Shown here piece by piece: positions 43,542 through 49,643 of a DNA stretch of 64,000 bases. Position 1 is the stretch's first letter; each line of letters opens with the position of its first letter. The notes beneath the pieces were generated by a model. That model saw only the letters and a program-made list of their open reading frames with translations. It did no database searches and was not told where the DNA came from. Source of the DNA: Pseudomonas sp. R76 (GTDB lineage Bacteria > Pseudomonadota > Gammaproteobacteria > Pseudomonadales > Pseudomonadaceae). The position numbers were made by a program, and so were the translations under genes. The stretch spans positions 3,100,001 through 3,164,000 of the forward strand of contig NZ_CP019428.1 of NCBI RefSeq assembly GCF_009834565.1. The letters run 5' to 3'.

Positions 43542-44303
43542 CTAGGCGAACACGATCTCATAGGGCTCGCGCATCCGCTCCAGCAGCTCCTGGGCGAGCA
43601 TTGGTGCCAGGCCGATTGACGGGTCGCCGACCAACTGGCTTGCATACGCATGGGCGGCGTGGAGCTTGCGCGCAACGCACCAAGTGTCTAGGCGCACCTT
43701 GTGCGCACGCTGCCACGGGATCACCGCACCTTCGCGCACCGGCCAATGCCAGGCCCAAATGGGCAATTCATACAGGCGCGCGCCAATCAGGCTACAGGCC
43801 TTGGCGCTGGCACGGCCGACGGCGTCGTGGTCGTCATTGCCGTCGTTGCGCCAGGTGGTGAACACCACATCGCCGGGTTGCAGGTAGCGTGCGATAAATT
43901 GGCTCATCGGCTGCTCGCGGGCCGCCAGGGCGTCGTCGCAAAACCCACCACGAATCCACTTCAAACTGTGCAATGGCATGCCCAGGCGACGCAGCGCTTC
44001 GGCACTTTCCTGGGGGCGAATCACACTTAAGCGGCTCGCCGGCCAGGCGTTGGAGCCGGGGTGGCTGGCACTGCCATCGGTGATTGAAATCAGCAGCAGT
44101 GGGTGTTCGCGGGTGCTGAGCAGTTGCAGCAACCCGCCGCAGGCCAACACCTCGTCGCCGGGGTGCGGGGCGATCACCACCACACGCGCGCCGGGCGGCA
44201 CGAGGGTTGATGGTGCGACGATGGGGATTTGCGCCAACTGCGGGGCGCTGTTCCAGATTTGCGCGGGGCCGCGGCGGCCCTCGCCTAAGGAGGCAGGCTT
44301 CAT
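43542..44303 (-). CDS. PIG-L family deacetylase paralogue with altered active site
   Basis: A 253-residue LmbE/PIG-L protein, paralogous to the protein at 45732-46490 (shared ISITDGSASHPGS, RPQESAEALRRLGMPLHSLKWIR, DVVFTTWR, AVGRASAKA and more). The zinc-site motif reads PHPGDEVLACGG (about residues 46-57), where the family has HPDDE: the first Asp, the general base, is Gly, while His, second Asp and the downstream HDAVGRA His remain. It may be inactive or use another base. AAGGA precedes the ATG at 44303. A 176-bp gap separates it from the cassette gene upstream. Confidence 0.85.
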   Translation of the reverse strand: MKPASLGEGRRGPAQIWNSAPQLAQIPIVAPSTLVPPGARVVVIAPHPGDEVLACGGLLQLLSTREHPLLLISITDGSASHPGSNAWPASRLSVIRPQESAEALRRLGMPLHSLKWIRGGFCDDALAAREQPMSQFIARYLQPGDVVFTTWRNDGNDDHDAVGRASAKACSLIGARLYELPIWAWHWPVREGAVIPWQRAHKVRLDTWCVARKLHAAHAYASQLVGDPSIGLAPMLAQELLERMREPYEIVFA

Positions 44304-44479
44304 GGGTGTCACATCCTTGTCAAATGGTGCTGGGTCGTACCCCGTTGACGGGACGACGCTCTTTTAGTCAGCGCAGACTCCGCTGCGCGGGTGCGACACT
44401 CCAACCCTGGAGTGCCAGCGAGGCAATGTCAGCATAGTCAAGGATTGGTCGCTTTTACATCTTGTAATGTCGATTTTTT

Positions 44480-45139
44480 TCAGGAGGCCTGCATCAGGCT
44501 TTTCAGGTAGTCGCCAAACCCGCCTTGGGCACGGCAATCCAGGCGAGCACTGGTGATGACCTGCGGGGTGTGGCTCCAGGCGATAGAGGCGCCGCAGCGT
44601 TCCAGGTTACGCACCAGTTGCACATCTTCGTGGCACGCCAGCGGCTCAAAACCACCGGCTTGCACATAGGCGCCGGCACTCACGCCCAGGTTGGCGCCGT
44701 GCACATGCCGATGGCCTTCGCGTGCCTCATACGCCTGGTTGTAGCGAATTTGCGCGGCCGGGTCGAAATCTTCGCTCCAGGCATCGACGGTGACCGTGCC
44801 GCACACCGCGTCCGCACCCAGCGCCAATTGCGCCACCAGCCAGTCGGGCGCTACGCGGCTGTCGGCGTCGGTGCAGGAGATCCAGCGCGCGCCCAGATTC
44901 AGCAGATGGCGCGCGCCCACCCCGCGCACATGGCCCACATTGCGGGCCTGTACGTGCAGGCTCTGCACCGGATAGGCCTGGGCGATGGCGGCACTGCCGT
45001 CGTCGCAGCTGTCGAGTACCGCGAGAATCTCTACCGCTTCGCCCTGCAGTCCGGGATGGTTCGCAGCAATCAGGGCGGCGTTCAGGCACTCGGCCAACAG
45101 GGCTTCTTCGTTATGCACCGGGATCAGAATGCCGATCAT
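44480..45139 (-). CDS. Family 2 glycosyltransferase
   Basis: A 219-residue GT-A enzyme. It starts MIGILIPVHNEEALLAEC at 45139 (nucleotide-binding strand), with the DxD-like CTDADSRVAPDW (about residues 87-98) and the acceptor-site HED in LACHEDVQLVRN (about 166-177). It is a soluble, compact GT2 without membrane helices. The start overlaps the methyltransferase stop by 4 bp; it is the last gene of the tightly coupled PIG-L/MT/GT cassette. Sugar donor and acceptor are unknown. Confidence 0.86.
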   Translation of the reverse strand: MIGILIPVHNEEALLAECLNAALIAANHPGLQGEAVEILAVLDSCDDGSAAIAQAYPVQSLHVQARNVGHVRGVGARHLLNLGARWISCTDADSRVAPDWLVAQLALGADAVCGTVTVDAWSEDFDPAAQIRYNQAYEAREGHRHVHGANLGVSAGAYVQAGGFEPLACHEDVQLVRNLERCGASIAWSHTPQVITSARLDCRAQGGFGDYLKSLMQAS

Positions 45140-45735
45140 CGCAAGCCCTCGTGGGACGCGACCGAGGTGCCGTCGCGGCTCCACAGATCGAGTAGGAAAT
45201 CGCTCTCGTGATGCTGCGCAACAGGCGGCATGCCCAGGCGTTGTTGCAGCAATGCGTGCACCTGTTCGGCGGTTTGCGGGCAGCCGTCGATGGCCGGGCG
45301 CCAGTGGCAGGCCAGCAGTTGGCCGTTGTCGGTCAACGAGGCGAGGGCGCGATCGATCAAACGGTGCAAATCTTCGGCATCGAGGTAGTAGCACAGCTCG
45401 CTCAACACGATCAGTTCGAACGGCTCCGTCGGCCATTGTTCGGGCAAGCGGCTTTGGTGCACCTGCGCATGGGCAAACCCCAGCAAGCGGTTTTTCGCCA
45501 GCGCCACGGCAGCGGCAGCCGTGTCACAACACACCAGGCGCTCACAGCGCGGCGCCAGTTCTGCGCTCAGCTCGCCATTGGCGCAGCCGGGTTCGAATAT
45601 CGAGGTGTAGCGTGGTCGGGTCAGCAGCGCCAAGGTCAGGGCGCGCTTGCGCCGTTCGTACCAGCGTTGGCGAAATGCCCACGGGTCGTCATTACCGGCG
45701 AACAGTTGATCGAAATAGGGTGTGGCAACGCTCAT
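45136..45735 (-). CDS. NodS-like SAM-dependent methyltransferase
   Basis: A 199-residue methyltransferase. Motif I is IFEPGCANGELSAELAPRC (about residues 46-64), followed by the acidic strand VCCDTAAAAVALAKNRL (about 68-84) and FELIVLSELCYYLDAEDL (about 103-120). This matches NodS, the N-methyltransferase of nodulation factor synthesis, which acts after deacetylation by NodB. Here it is coupled by 4-bp overlaps to a PIG-L deacetylase upstream and a glycosyltransferase downstream, so an N-deacetylate-then-methylate order on a sugar is a sensible inference. Confidence 0.86.
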   Translation of the reverse strand: MSVATPYFDQLFAGNDDPWAFRQRWYERRKRALTLALLTRPRYTSIFEPGCANGELSAELAPRCERLVCCDTAAAAVALAKNRLLGFAHAQVHQSRLPEQWPTEPFELIVLSELCYYLDAEDLHRLIDRALASLTDNGQLLACHWRPAIDGCPQTAEQVHALLQQRLGMPPVAQHHESDFLLDLWSRDGTSVASHEGLR

Positions 45736-46490
45736 ACAAACACCACTTCAAAAGGTTGCAGCAGGCGCTCCACCACGTAGGGCGCGAGCACCGGTGGCAG
45801 GCCGATCTGCGGGTCGCCTTCCAGCTGGCTGGCGAAGGCGTGAATGGCGTGGCGTTTGCGCGCGACCGCCTCGGGTGTCAGCAGGATTTTGCGCGCGCGA
45901 TGCCACGGCACCTGGCTGTCTTCGGGGGTTGCCCAGTGCCAGGTCCACACGGGCAGTTCGTAGAGTGTGGCGCCCACCGCCTGGGCGGCCTTGGCACTGG
46001 CGCGGCCGACGGCTTCATGGTCGCAATGCCCGTCTTCGCGCCAGGTGGTGAACACCACATCGGTGGGCTTGAGGTAGCGTTGTATAAAGGCGCACAAGTG
46101 CTCTTCACCGGCCGCCACCTGGCTGTCGGCAAAACCTGCGCGCAGCCATTTCAGGCTGTGCAGCGGCAAGCCCAGACGGTGCAGAGCCTGGGCCGACTCT
46201 TGCGGGCGCACCACGCTCAAGCGTTCCACCGGCCAACGCCGGGAGCCTGGATGACTGGCGCTGCCGTCGGTCACGGAAATCAGCTGAATCGGCCGCCCGA
46301 GCGAGGCCAGGCCTTGCAACAGGCCGCCACAGCCGAGCACTTCATCGTCCGGGTGCGGGGCGATGACCACCGCGCGGTGACCTTCGGGCACCAGTTGCTC
46401 GACGCTGATCTGCGGCAGCTCAGCCATATGGGACGACGCTTGCCACTGATGCAGCGGCGTGCCCTGGCCGACAATCGGATTAGCCTTCAT
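45732..46490 (-). CDS. PIG-L family deacetylase
   Basis: A 252-residue LmbE/PIG-L zinc deacetylase with the intact PHPDDEVLGCGG motif (about residues 46-57: zinc His and Asp plus the base Asp) and a third ligand in CDHEAVGRAS (about 164-173). Relatives remove N-acetyl groups from GlcNAc-containing lipids or thiols. The ATG at 46490 has GGAGG 8 nt upstream. It overlaps the acyl-CoA-dehydrogenase-like gene by 4 bp and the methyltransferase by 4 bp. Confidence 0.88.
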   Translation of the reverse strand: MKANPIVGQGTPLHQWQASSHMAELPQISVEQLVPEGHRAVVIAPHPDDEVLGCGGLLQGLASLGRPIQLISVTDGSASHPGSRRWPVERLSVVRPQESAQALHRLGLPLHSLKWLRAGFADSQVAAGEEHLCAFIQRYLKPTDVVFTTWREDGHCDHEAVGRASAKAAQAVGATLYELPVWTWHWATPEDSQVPWHRARKILLTPEAVARKRHAIHAFASQLEGDPQIGLPPVLAPYVVERLLQPFEVVFV

Positions 46491-47485
46491 AGATGCCACC
46501 TCCGTGTGGAATCGCCGACGACCAATTCACCCAAGGCCGCCAGGTCACGTTCGGCGTGACTTTGCCGCACGTACACCGGCAAATCCGCCATCAACTGCGC
46601 GAAGTGCGGGTCTTTGCAATAAGGCCCGGCGCCGACCGCGCGGCCGACATGCTGAATGACTTGCTCGACGGTATCCTCAATGCAGGCGCGCGCCTGCTGA
46701 GCCAGCAGGCGCGCATCGGCCCGCGGTTCGCGGTCGATCTGTTCGGCACTGTCACGCAGTACGCACGCGGCGCTGTTCAGCACACTGTCCACCGCGCCCA
46801 GGTGGGCGAGGGCGTGAGGTTCAGGGCGTTTGGTGCATTGCTCGCGCAACACTTCGGCCAGGCGTTGCGCGCCGCCATACCAACACGCCGCGATGCCGAC
46901 GCCGCCGTGCCAAAAACCGGGCCGGGAGAGGTAATCCCCCGGCCCGCCGACCGCGATGCCCTTGGCCTCTTCAAACACAATTTCGACGCTGCCCGTGGCC
47001 GCCATGCCCACGGCGTTCCAGCCTTCATTGGTGACGGTGATGCCGGGCTGGTCCATGTCCACGGCAACCAATTGCTGGCGGTCCTCTTCGTCCCAGGCGG
47101 TCAACAACCCATGGCTGACCACGGCCGCCCCGGAACACCAGGCCTTGCGCCCCTCGACGAGCAACCGATGGCCGTCGCGACGCACACGTACCTTGGCCGT
47201 TGGCGGCTCGGCAGCCCACATGCCCCAAATGCTGCCCAGTGGCGGCAAGGGGCTGTCGAGTTCGGCGATGATCGCCAAGGCATCGGTATGGCCTTCGAAC
47301 AGCTTGCACAGGCGCAAGTCATGCCCCGCCACTTGGGCGAGGCCGCTGAAGCGCGCCAAGGTCTCGCCGCTGCCGGGCAATGGCAGTTGGTCCAGGCCTT
47401 CTTGCTGAAGCGCCTTCAGTGCATTACCCAAGGCCTGCGTGTCCGCATAGCTCCGGTAGCCTTGAAGGAATCCATGCAGGGCCAT
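46487..47485 (-). CDS. Acyl-CoA dehydrogenase-like flavoprotein
   Basis: A 332-residue protein with the acyl-CoA dehydrogenase middle beta-domain (LVEGRKAWCSGAAVVSHGLLTA, about residues 109-130; GMAATGSVEIVFEEA, about 160-174) and a C-terminal helical domain (LMADLPVYVRQSHAERDLAALGE, about 300-322). It is shorter than typical members (about 380), and I see no catalytic Glu at the usual late position, as in ACAD-like flavin oxidases and monooxygenases. The ATG follows one base after the glgX stop with GAGGTG upstream. It links the trehalose operon to the modification cassette. Confidence 0.8.
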   Translation of the reverse strand: MALHGFLQGYRSYADTQALGNALKALQQEGLDQLPLPGSGETLARFSGLAQVAGHDLRLCKLFEGHTDALAIIAELDSPLPPLGSIWGMWAAEPPTAKVRVRRDGHRLLVEGRKAWCSGAAVVSHGLLTAWDEEDRQQLVAVDMDQPGITVTNEGWNAVGMAATGSVEIVFEEAKGIAVGGPGDYLSRPGFWHGGVGIAACWYGGAQRLAEVLREQCTKRPEPHALAHLGAVDSVLNSAACVLRDSAEQIDREPRADARLLAQQARACIEDTVEQVIQHVGRAVGAGPYCKDPHFAQLMADLPVYVRQSHAERDLAALGELVVGDSTRRWHL

Positions 47486-47486
47486 C

Positions 47487-49643
47487 TCACACCTCGTCGT
47501 GCTGCAGTTCAAACAGTAACAACGAGCGGCCGGTCACGGCGTACTCGTGCTCGAAATCAAAGCGTTCCTGGCCACGCACCGCAGGGTCATTGGTGTCGAG
47601 CATACAGGTCCAGAATTCACCCTCCGGCACCGGCGGCAGGCGGAAGTTGACCATGTCGTGGTGGGCGTTGACCACCAGCAGCAGGGTGGCATCGCCACCT
47701 GGCCGACGAATCCCGGTTTCCTGGGCGCGCCCGTCCATCAGCATGCCCAGGCAGCGGCCCTGGCTGTCCTGCCACTGCTCAATGCTCATCTCGCTGCCGT
47801 CCGGCGCCAGCCAAGTCACATCCTTCACGCCGATGTCTTCATTGTAATCGCCGACCAGGAAGCGCCCACGGCGCAGGATCGGGTACGCCAGGCGCAGCTT
47901 GATCAGGCGTTTCACAAACTTGAGCAGCGCTTTGCCGTCGTCGTCCAGGTCCCAGTTGACCCAGCCGATTTCACTGTCCTGGCAATAGGCATTGTTGTTG
48001 CCATGCTGGGTTCGCGCGAATTCGTCACCGGCCACCAACATAGGCGTGCCTTGGGCGAGCAGCAAGGTGGCGAAGAAGTTGCGCATCTGGCGCAGGCGCA
48101 GCGCGTTGATTTCCGGGTCGTCGGTGGGGCCTTCGACGCCATGGTTCCAGGACAGGTTGTTGTTGCTGCCGTCCTGGTTGTTCTCGTCGTTGGCTTCGTT
48201 GTGCTTGTCGTTGTACGACACCAGGTCGTGCAACGTGAACCCGTCGTGGGCGGTGATGAAGTTCACCGAGCTGTAGGGGCGTCGACCGCGCTGGTTGAAC
48301 ATCTCGCCCGAAGCGGTCATGCGTGCGGCGAAATCGGCCAGCTGGCCGTCGTCGCCTTTCCAGAACGCGCGCACGGTGTCGCGGAAACGGTCGTTCCACT
48401 CGACCCAGCCGGGCGGGAATTTACCCACTTGATAGCCGCCGGGGCCGCAGTCCCAGGGTTCGGCGATCATTTTCAGCTGGCGCAGCACCGGGTCCTGGCG
48501 GCAGGCCACGAGGAAGCTGTGGCGCTCGTCGAAACCATCGCGGTAACGGCCCAGAATGGTTGCCAGGTCAAAGCGGAAACCGTCCACGTGCATCTCGGTG
48601 GCCCAGTAGCGCAGGGAGTCGGTGACCATTTGCAGCACGCACGGGTGGCTCAGGTCCAGGGTGTTACCGGTGCCGGAGTCGTTGATGTAGAAACGCTTGT
48701 CGTCGGGCATCAAGCGGTAGTACGAGGCGTTGTCGATACCGCGCATGGACAGGGTCGGGCCGCGCTCGTTGCCTTCGGCGGTGTGGTTGTAGACCACGTC
48801 GAGGATCACTTCCAGCTTGGCTTCGTGCAGGTGCGCGACCATTTCCTTGAACTCGGCGATCTTGCCGCTGGCCAGGTAACGCGGGTCCGGGGCAAAAAAG
48901 GCGATGCTGTTATAGCCCCAATAGTTGGTCATGCCTTTTTGCAGCAGGTGCTGGTCGTTGACGAAGGCATGCACCGGCAGCAGTTCGACCGACGACACGC
49001 CCAGTTGGCGAATGTGCTTGAGCACATCGTCTTCCATCAACCCGGCGCAGGTGCCGCGCACCGACTCGCCCACCGAAGGGTGGCGCATGCTGATGCCGCG
49101 CAAGTGGGTTTCGTAGATGATCGTACGGTCCCACGGCACGCGCACCGGTTGGTCGTTGCCCCAGGTGTGCGCGGGGTCGATGACCTTGCACTTGGGCACG
49201 AAGGGCGCGCTGTCGCGCTCGTCGAAACTGAGGTCGTCATCCGGGTGGCCGATGGTGTAGCCGAACAGCGCCTCGGACCATTTGAGTTCGCCCACCAGCT
49301 GTTTGGCATAGGGGTCGATCAGCAATTTGTTGTGGTTGAAACGGTGGCCGTTGGCCGGGTCATACGCACCGTAAACGCGGTAGCCGTAAATCAGCCCAGG
49401 GTGGGCGTCGGGCAGGTAACCGTGGAAGGTTTCATCGGTGTATTCGGGCAGTTCGATGCGCTCCAGCTCGATTTCGCCGGTGTCATCGAACAGGCACAGT
49501 TCGACCTTTGTGGCGTTGGCCGAGAACAGCGCGAAGTTGACGCCCAGGCCGTCCCAGGTGGCGCCGAGGGGGAAGGGCAAACCTTCACGAATCCGCGACG
49601 GCTCGTTTTCCGACGTCGGTTGGGTTTTATCGGGCTTGCTCAT
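47487..49643 (-). CDS. glgX: Glycogen debranching enzyme GlgX
   Basis: A 718-residue GH13 isoamylase. An N-terminal CBM48 (about residues 20-115) is followed by the catalytic barrel: DVVYNHTAEGN, GFRFDLATILGR (nucleophile Asp), IAEPWDCGPGGYQVG (acid/base Glu) and FITAHDGFTLHDLVSYNDKHNEAN. It removes alpha-1,6 branches from glycogen limit dextrins, yielding malto-oligosaccharides for TreY and MalQ. It follows the DUF2934 gene after 129 bp, matching the P. aeruginosa order as I remember it. Confidence 0.95.
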   Translation of the reverse strand: MSKPDKTQPTSENEPSRIREGLPFPLGATWDGLGVNFALFSANATKVELCLFDDTGEIELERIELPEYTDETFHGYLPDAHPGLIYGYRVYGAYDPANGHRFNHNKLLIDPYAKQLVGELKWSEALFGYTIGHPDDDLSFDERDSAPFVPKCKVIDPAHTWGNDQPVRVPWDRTIIYETHLRGISMRHPSVGESVRGTCAGLMEDDVLKHIRQLGVSSVELLPVHAFVNDQHLLQKGMTNYWGYNSIAFFAPDPRYLASGKIAEFKEMVAHLHEAKLEVILDVVYNHTAEGNERGPTLSMRGIDNASYYRLMPDDKRFYINDSGTGNTLDLSHPCVLQMVTDSLRYWATEMHVDGFRFDLATILGRYRDGFDERHSFLVACRQDPVLRQLKMIAEPWDCGPGGYQVGKFPPGWVEWNDRFRDTVRAFWKGDDGQLADFAARMTASGEMFNQRGRRPYSSVNFITAHDGFTLHDLVSYNDKHNEANDENNQDGSNNNLSWNHGVEGPTDDPEINALRLRQMRNFFATLLLAQGTPMLVAGDEFARTQHGNNNAYCQDSEIGWVNWDLDDDGKALLKFVKRLIKLRLAYPILRRGRFLVGDYNEDIGVKDVTWLAPDGSEMSIEQWQDSQGRCLGMLMDGRAQETGIRRPGGDATLLLVVNAHHDMVNFRLPPVPEGEFWTCMLDTNDPAVRGQERFDFEHEYAVTGRSLLLFELQHDEV

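Follow-up and report, generated by a model that had tools for sequence, protein, structure and literature searches.

What do the genes behind the trehalose operon of Pseudomonas sp. R76 make, and do they belong to this operon at all? The locus lies in a stretch of 64,000 nucleotides of contig NZ_CP019428.1 (positions 3,100,001 to 3,164,000; called the window below). There glgX, the final gene of the run glgA-treZ-malQ-treY-DUF2934-glgX, is followed after 1 bp by a cassette of four genes, which encode an acyl-CoA dehydrogenase (ACAD)-fold flavoprotein, a PIG-L deacetylase (PIG-L1), a NodS-like S-adenosylmethionine (SAM) methyltransferase and a family-2 glycosyltransferase (GT2), and then by a gene for a PIG-L paralogue (PIG-L2). 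The four genes are a self-contained, probably biosynthetic unit, which is far more widely distributed than the trehalose operon and sits at varied genomic sites and on plasmids.

Organisation and distribution of the cassette

All genes of the locus are located on the reverse strand. The gene for the ACAD-fold protein (46487..47485; 332 amino acids) starts with an ATG at 47485, which leaves a single base to the end of glgX at 47487. Three 4-bp overlaps connect it with the genes for PIG-L1 (45732..46490; LmbE-like), the methyltransferase (45136..45735; 199 amino acids) and GT2 (44480..45139; 219 amino acids). A gap of 176 bp (44304..44479) precedes PIG-L2 (43542..44303), which likewise has an ATG start. 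This layout of five genes had been described correctly to the base in a first-pass annotation of the sequence.

The distribution of the cassette was followed in several genome sets. Searching 349 genomes of the phylum with PIG-L1 (E <= 1e-20) revealed matches in 23 of them, the own genome included. In the short loci retrieved by this search, genes for ACAD, PIG-L and methyltransferase occur together in 14 cases from other genera (L010-L020, L022-L024), and GT2 is present within the fetched stretch of nine of these, once in opposite orientation. Three further short loci (L021, L025, L026) contain PIG-L alone or PIG-L with ACAD, and one (L009) has PIG-L2 behind glgX and nothing else of the set. 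An ACAD alignment scan of species genomes detected at least 573 relatives. Among the best 80 of these, surveyed as named loci, all four genes are present in 75, with the order ACAD-PIGL-MT-GT2 (MT, methyltransferase) in 51 and GT2-ACAD-PIGL-MT in 24; two of the five incomplete loci are short contigs. Because the first query row came from Kitasatospora, the best 80 belong mostly to Actinomycetota. A single locus of the Dormiibacterota carries ACAD, methyltransferase and GT2. Overall, the full cassette is found in at least two phyla and partial sets in two more.

Within Pseudomonas, the ACAD gene is present in 92 of 149 genomes (E <= 1e-20) and the methyltransferase in 91 (E <= 1e-25), all of them ACAD carriers; none of the 57 genomes without the ACAD gene contains the methyltransferase. 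The sole ACAD carrier lacking a methyltransferase match is a fragmented assembly of about 650 contigs. Since set and order recur across phyla, the arrangement is not due to chance. The proposal that the genes form one unit is supported, and the neighbourhood survey suggested along with it showed that the families are co-conserved in the same order in distant bacteria. The PIG-L/methyltransferase fusions that the first-pass annotation had mentioned for actinobacteria also exist: they comprise 502 amino acids in Brevibacterium yomogidense, 465 and 453 amino acids in a Mycobacterium sp., and one reading frame in Streptomyces. In the Mycobacterium sp. genome, GT2-ACAD stands without PIG-L and methyltransferase (L219), and the two fused genes are located elsewhere (L259, L261), one of them followed by another GT2. 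A frame-split ACAD gene was seen in two Pseudomonas genomes (G399, G427); in the loci L165, L169 and L230 it is likewise divided between two reading frames, as a pseudogene or by sequencing error.

Plasmid records with the cassette come from Pandoraea, Acinetobacter, Cupriavidus, Sulfitobacter and Kitasatospora. A Deinococcus plasmid record contains ACAD, PIG-L and methyltransferase with a TnpB gene between them and no recognised GT2; in this plasmid, from Deinococcus wulumuqiensis (L177), the TnpB gene has the opposite orientation and separates ACAD from PIG-L-MT. On a Cupriavidus basilensis plasmid (L175), PIG-L is set apart from ACAD-MT-GT2 and lies beside a catalase gene and near a GlgE gene in the same plasmid stretch. 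The plasmid collection contains 20 Acinetobacter records with an ACAD match. One record from Acinetobacter baumannii (L174), listed as a plasmid although its 3.66 Mb are chromosome-sized, so that the label may be wrong, has a copy of the cassette about 4.5 kb from a predicted aminoglycoside-resistance gene.

How tightly is the cassette then tied to trehalose metabolism? The identity of glgX is well supported (1084.5 bits against a cut-off of 640.9); glgA, treZ, malQ and treY were named from their translations rather than by profile scan, and the small gene between treY and glgX is presumably DUF2934. The same glgA-treZ-malQ-treY-glgX genes constitute the Pseudomonas GlgA/TreYZ trehalose operon, and the gene lists given for P. 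aeruginosa and P. syringae pv. tomato stop at glgX (PMC8084333, PMC8982409). The main texts of these two papers do not contain the word 'deacetylase', and the P. aeruginosa one contains neither 'acyl-CoA dehydrogenase' nor 'glycosyltransferase'. glgX occurs in 133 of the 149 Pseudomonas genomes (E <= 1e-200). The linkage is not constant: among the 92 ACAD carriers, 64 have the start of the ACAD match no farther than 4 kb from the glgX match and 28 do not, and in 14 of these 28 the two reside on different contigs. In addition, we examined a set of 114 loci, which leaves out most glgX-linked Pseudomonas and includes three loci (L076-L078) without the full set seen. Trehalose or glucan genes are found near 11 of them, namely five Pseudomonas loci with a glgX-type operon and six other proteobacterial loci with otsA/otsB (L065, L067, L171), otsA (L068), treY-glgA (L071) or GlgE (L175). 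No trehalose or glucan gene of the searched kinds was present in the actinobacterial loci of this set. L071 (4376-9545) represents a different family within the class; its cassette is diverged and follows genes resembling treY and glgA, apparently as an independent join to glucan genes. Thus, the link between cassette and trehalose genes seems to have arisen more than once, yet it is not general; the trehalose operon is one of several sites where the cassette sits, and the glgX junction is local to one set of Pseudomonas.

These data also bear on the possibility that the cassette modifies trehalose or glucan delivered by the preceding operon, yielding an amino-glucan or a trehalose derivative. 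The 1-bp junction in the window, the adjacency in 64 of the 92 Pseudomonas carriers and the six proteobacterial loci would agree with it, but the 28 unlinked carriers (half of them with the cassette on another contig of a draft) and the actinobacterial loci argue against it. Moreover, PIG-L enzymes act on N-acetylglucosamine (GlcNAc) conjugates, and glucans contain no GlcNAc. We consider this explanation improbable, and a strictly glucan-specific pathway was rejected because, apart from the linked Pseudomonas, the majority of relatives have no glucan genes at their side.

A simple scan revealed no terminator-like site between glgX and the ACAD gene; between 42300 and 50200 the same scan gave six terminator-like sites, compared with 7.6 in shuffled sequences, and no promoter-like sites. 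The G+C content of the five genes differs from that of glgX at the third (0.755-0.786 versus 0.836) and at the second codon position (0.473-0.514 versus 0.396), which would fit their later arrival.

PIG-L2, a paralogue without the catalytic base

The PIG-L superfamily is characterized by the motif HXD1D2 plus a further His, in which D1 acts as general base and D2 coordinates the metal; when the side chain of His144 is removed from MshB, no more than 1% of the activity is reported to remain (PMC4101496). PIG-L1 has an intact active site with HPDDE and DGHCDH (consensus DGHxDH), i.e., the complete metal motif with D1 in place. PIG-L2 instead reads HPGDE, with Gly replacing the catalytic Asp, and DGNDDH, with Asn replacing the His; it therefore lacks the general base but keeps the metal ligands (His, Asp, His). 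The same pattern extends over many relatives. We compared 141 PIG-L rows of at least 235 residues, comprising 139 distinct sequences and the two of the window counted again. D1 is present in 77 rows, which also keep every other checked residue, and is missing in 64, where it is replaced by Gly (63) or Ile (1). The equivalent of His144 is also lost in 63 of these 64 base-less rows, but the three metal ligands are kept in 64, 63 and 64 of them.

In 27 genomes without any ACAD match, a lone PIG-L gene is located directly behind glgX. It encodes HPGDE in 24 genomes (L079, L130-L152), which lack the methyltransferase as well, HPIDE in one (L153), HPGAE in one (L156) and an intact motif in one (L154). 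A tree of 61 rows (28 with the base and 33 of the 64 without) was rooted at its midpoint because no outgroup was used. It places 31 of the 33 sampled base-less rows, the PIG-L2 of the window among them, in one clade with a support of 100/100 and without any intact row inside. L153 and L156 fall outside this clade, L156 on a long branch. Both are lone genes behind glgX; in L153 (3483-4331) the catalytic Asp is changed to Ile, and in L156 (3110-3856) both Asp residues are lost (Gly-Ala).

The ratio of nonsynonymous to synonymous substitution rates (dN/dS) between the PIG-L2 of the window and 20 relatives is 0.053-0.146, and 20 PIG-L1 pairs gave 0.056-0.124; these values are rough because dS is near saturation (0.66-1.5). 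The structural model of PIG-L2 shows a normal PIG-L fold (predicted local distance difference test, pLDDT, 90.9). These comparisons indicate that PIG-L2 is kept under purifying selection although a residue held necessary for hydrolysis is gone. The view that the second PIG-L is a plain, additional deacetylase was consequently abandoned, as the catalytic base is missing both in the window gene and in the whole sampled clade. Retained metal ligands together with a lost base suggest that PIG-L2 probably binds rather than cuts; it is probably a later duplicate that turned into a pseudo-deacetylase.

A tentative alternative is that PIG-L2 is still an enzyme with changed chemistry, e.g., a hydratase or a deacetylase using another base, instead of a binding protein. 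The almost invariant metal ligands and the dN/dS values, which are similar to those of the intact copy, would be compatible with this, and the hydratase GalB has the same fold. On the other hand, the second catalytic position holds nine different non-His residues, and His in one row, which suggests that no new fixed side chain has been established there.

Stress genes and promoter motifs around the cassette

If the trehalose operon is one site among several, the other neighbours deserve attention. Within the fetched stretches of the 114 loci, blastp (E <= 1e-20) detected a LigD-like gene in 16, Ku in 6, long catalases in 8 and manganese catalases in 3. Of the 16 LigD loci, six come from Pseudomonas, eight from Rhodococcus or Rhodococcoides, one from Achromobacter and one from a further genome of the phylum (L072), so that they cannot be counted as independent. 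By Pfam, L072 has both LigD and Ku, L098 has LigD and L063 a manganese catalase. LigD and/or Ku genes lie beside or near the cassette in L080, L081, L087, L094, L098, L099, L253 and L072, from Pseudomonas, Achromobacter and the additional genome of the same phylum, and in L098 a distance of 30 bases separates LigD from the opening of the ACAD frame.

A domain census of near neighbours gave a comparable picture. Among 125 proteins from 33 mainly proteobacterial loci, LigD domains were hit 6-7 times and Ku five times, followed, among others, by catalase, OtsA and OtsB with three each. In 124 proteins from 32 mostly actinobacterial loci, the commonest families include GAF (5), ANTAR (4), ferritin (3) and SpoIIE (2). 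A control with 124 of 185 far proteins (104 + 81), in which the 25 commonest families were considered, contained two catalases, and LigD was outside these families and hence hit at most twice. In neither near-neighbour set (249 proteins in total) do the 25 commonest families include a transporter family with more than two hits; MFS and ABC were found twice each. On an Acinetobacter ursingii plasmid (L171), a stress block consists of catalase, DUF421, an iron-containing redox enzyme, the complete cassette, an MFS transporter and otsA/otsB.

The upstream regions were inspected for a motif of the SigF/SigB type, whose reading as the SigF consensus follows the motifs tabulated for the SigF regulon in PMC4694148. 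The actinobacterial count covered 68 loci; it omitted ten loci of the range L178-L255, of which three are from Pseudomonas, two from betaproteobacteria and five are short contigs, and also L256-L257. The strict form GTTT-N15-18-GGGTA precedes the first gene in 5 of the 68 loci, compared with 4 of 870 other genes (p 1.7e-4); for the middle form the counts are 7 and 25 (p 0.006), and for the relaxed form 14 and 34 (p 2e-6). In the genus of the L219 Mycobacterium sp., the cassette GT2 is present in 27 of 60 genomes (E <= 1e-30), and 18 of 20 fetched loci read GT2-ACAD-PIGL in a short stretch. GTTT-N15-17-GGG[TA]A, a pattern tightened after looser ones had matched 11 of the 20 loci, occurs upstream in 8 of the 20, but in just 1 of 272 control windows taken from these loci (p 9e-10). 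The SigF-type motif is thus enriched, although the majority of loci lack it, and since the species are related, the p-values make the enrichment look stronger than it is. A candidate counterpart of the first mycobacterial cassette gene, taken as no more than a lead, is MSMEG_1097 of Mycobacterium smegmatis, a GT2 listed as SigF-dependent (PMC4694148) and also tabulated in PMC5445863.

Neighbours for non-homologous end joining, catalase and trehalose synthesis, together with SigF-type motifs, point to survival of drying, starvation or oxidation. We read the cassette from these sequence contexts as a putative general-stress or stationary-phase module of many bacteria. Of the earlier hint at desiccation or osmotic stress and a glucan-linked product, the stress part is supported by neighbours and promoter motifs, but the tie to trehalose or glucan does not hold generally.

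A predicted amino-sugar pathway

What the module makes has to be deduced from its enzymes. Both PIG-L proteins match the Pfam PIG-L family (88.8 bits for PIG-L1 and 73.5 for PIG-L2; cut-off 28.2), and the PIG-L profile recovers TT1542, diacetylchitobiose deacetylase, BshB and MshB. PIG-L1 is most likely a deacetylase of a GlcNAc-type conjugate, as predicted from its motifs and relatives. The methyltransferase matches Pfam NodS (54.8 bits; cut-off 24) and the solved chain 4ISC (E 6e-72 over 164 residues), which is named 'Methyltransferase' with no function given. GT2 matches Glycos_transf_2 (43.3 bits; cut-off 23.3) with conserved TDAD and ED motifs. In GT2, the methyltransferase and the ACAD protein, conserved residues are kept among 102-112 aligned members.

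The flavoprotein is more difficult to place. It matches Pfam Acyl-CoA_dh_M alone (35.8 bits; cut-off 33.3) and has the fold of the acyl-CoA dehydrogenase superfamily. Its sequence profile ranks the FMN monooxygenases TdsC, DszC and MsuC first and lists KijD3 and DnmZ as well. Foldseek ranks KijD3 first and DnmZ second, but in VIA-align several dehydrogenases and DszC-type enzymes outscore both. The majority of 112 members read R-Q-S/H-H at residues 307-310; no Glu occurs at positions 300-311, but it is common at 312. The catalytic glutamate of the dehydrogenases, Glu376 in medium-chain acyl-CoA dehydrogenase, may correspond to this region. Thus, the earlier label 'ACAD-like' is appropriate for the fold, but by sequence the protein looks more like a flavin mononucleotide (FMN)/flavin monooxygenase than a dehydrogenase; the fold does not decide.

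Three known systems resemble the cassette in part. Mycothiol (MshA/MshB) and bacillithiol (BshA/BshB) synthesis likewise combine a glycosyltransferase with a PIG-L enzyme, which deacetylates a GlcNAc conjugate and so releases its amine; MshB and BshB are related to PIG-L1 in sequence. However, the glycosyltransferases of these pathways are GT4 enzymes, and the cassette has no ligase, adds a methyltransferase and a flavoprotein, and its PIG-L1 reaches only 49.9 bits with TIGR04001 (BshB1), far below the cut-off of 182.5 (PIG-L2, 32.8). The Nod factor genes nodC-nodB-nodS also unite a glycosyltransferase, a deacetylase and a NodS-like methyltransferase; yet NodB is of the polysaccharide-deacetylase type, the cassette methyltransferase scores 62.3 of the 300 bits required by the NodS equivalog NF041650, and GT2 is short. 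KijD3, DnmZ and ORF36, which N-oxygenate thymidine diphosphate (TDP)-amino sugars in antibiotic pathways (4kcf), share the ACAD fold with the cassette flavoprotein at 17-20% identity.

Our favoured reading, held with about even confidence, is a self-contained cassette of the general-stress or stationary-phase equipment that makes a modified amino-sugar conjugate by the steps GT2, PIG-L1, methyltransferase and ACAD, with PIG-L2 as a binder. GT2 would transfer a GlcNAc-type sugar from a nucleotide donor to a common acceptor, PIG-L1 would take off the acetyl group, and the NodS-like methyltransferase would methylate the freed amine, an order suggested by the fusions that place deacetylation beside methylation. 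The ACAD-fold flavoprotein may then oxidise the same sugar, plausibly at nitrogen like KijD3 and DnmZ, and PIG-L2 would be a binding protein rather than a hydrolase. The product would most simply be a soluble amino-sugar conjugate. Gene set and order, co-occurrence, motifs, selection and promoter motifs are seen in the sequences; we infer the substrates, the order of steps, the product and its retention in the cell, and the role of PIG-L2.

It is rather unlikely that the cassette instead builds or decorates a glycolipid or surface glycan, by lipid deacetylation, GT2 action on a lipid and introduction of an acyl-chain double bond by the ACAD protein, so that the stress link would reflect envelope remodelling. 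In its favour, lipids are frequent substrates of PIG-L enzymes and of GT2, acyl-CoA dehydrogenases share their fold with the ACAD protein, and Sulfitobacter (L173) has a longer glycosyltransferase of 347 amino acids. Nevertheless, no acyltransferase, acyl carrier or flippase family is among the 25 commonest families of either near-neighbour set, and the sequence profile of the flavoprotein favours FMN monooxygenases.

No description of the cassette was found in the openly licensed literature, although a subscription paper may have been missed, and TMG-chitotriomycin, considered as a lead, gave no literature match. Each enzyme belongs to a known superfamily, but the openly licensed literature searched describes neither the way they are combined here nor a PIG-L family without the base. 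Returning to the amino-sugar pathway, a four-gene set that stays together in Pseudomonas and Acinetobacter as well as in Streptomyces and Rhodococcus must have a useful product. More speculatively, and with clearly less confidence than in the pathway itself, this product could be a small stress metabolite new to the literature: an amino-sugar glycoside whose amine, once freed by PIG-L, is N-methylated and N-oxidised. It would serve as a standard part of stationary-phase survival like trehalose or mycothiol. Next to the glucan enzymes, PIG-L2 would then act as a pseudo-deacetylase sensing or carrying this compound or some related amino sugar, with loss of the base having occurred two or three times behind glgX. 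The cassette opens the question of undiscovered bacterial stress metabolites to direct testing, and PIG-L2 is a clear-cut example of how a member of a metal-binding enzyme family can become a protein that is conserved yet apparently non-catalytic, while the ancestral enzyme is encoded nearby and can serve as a control.

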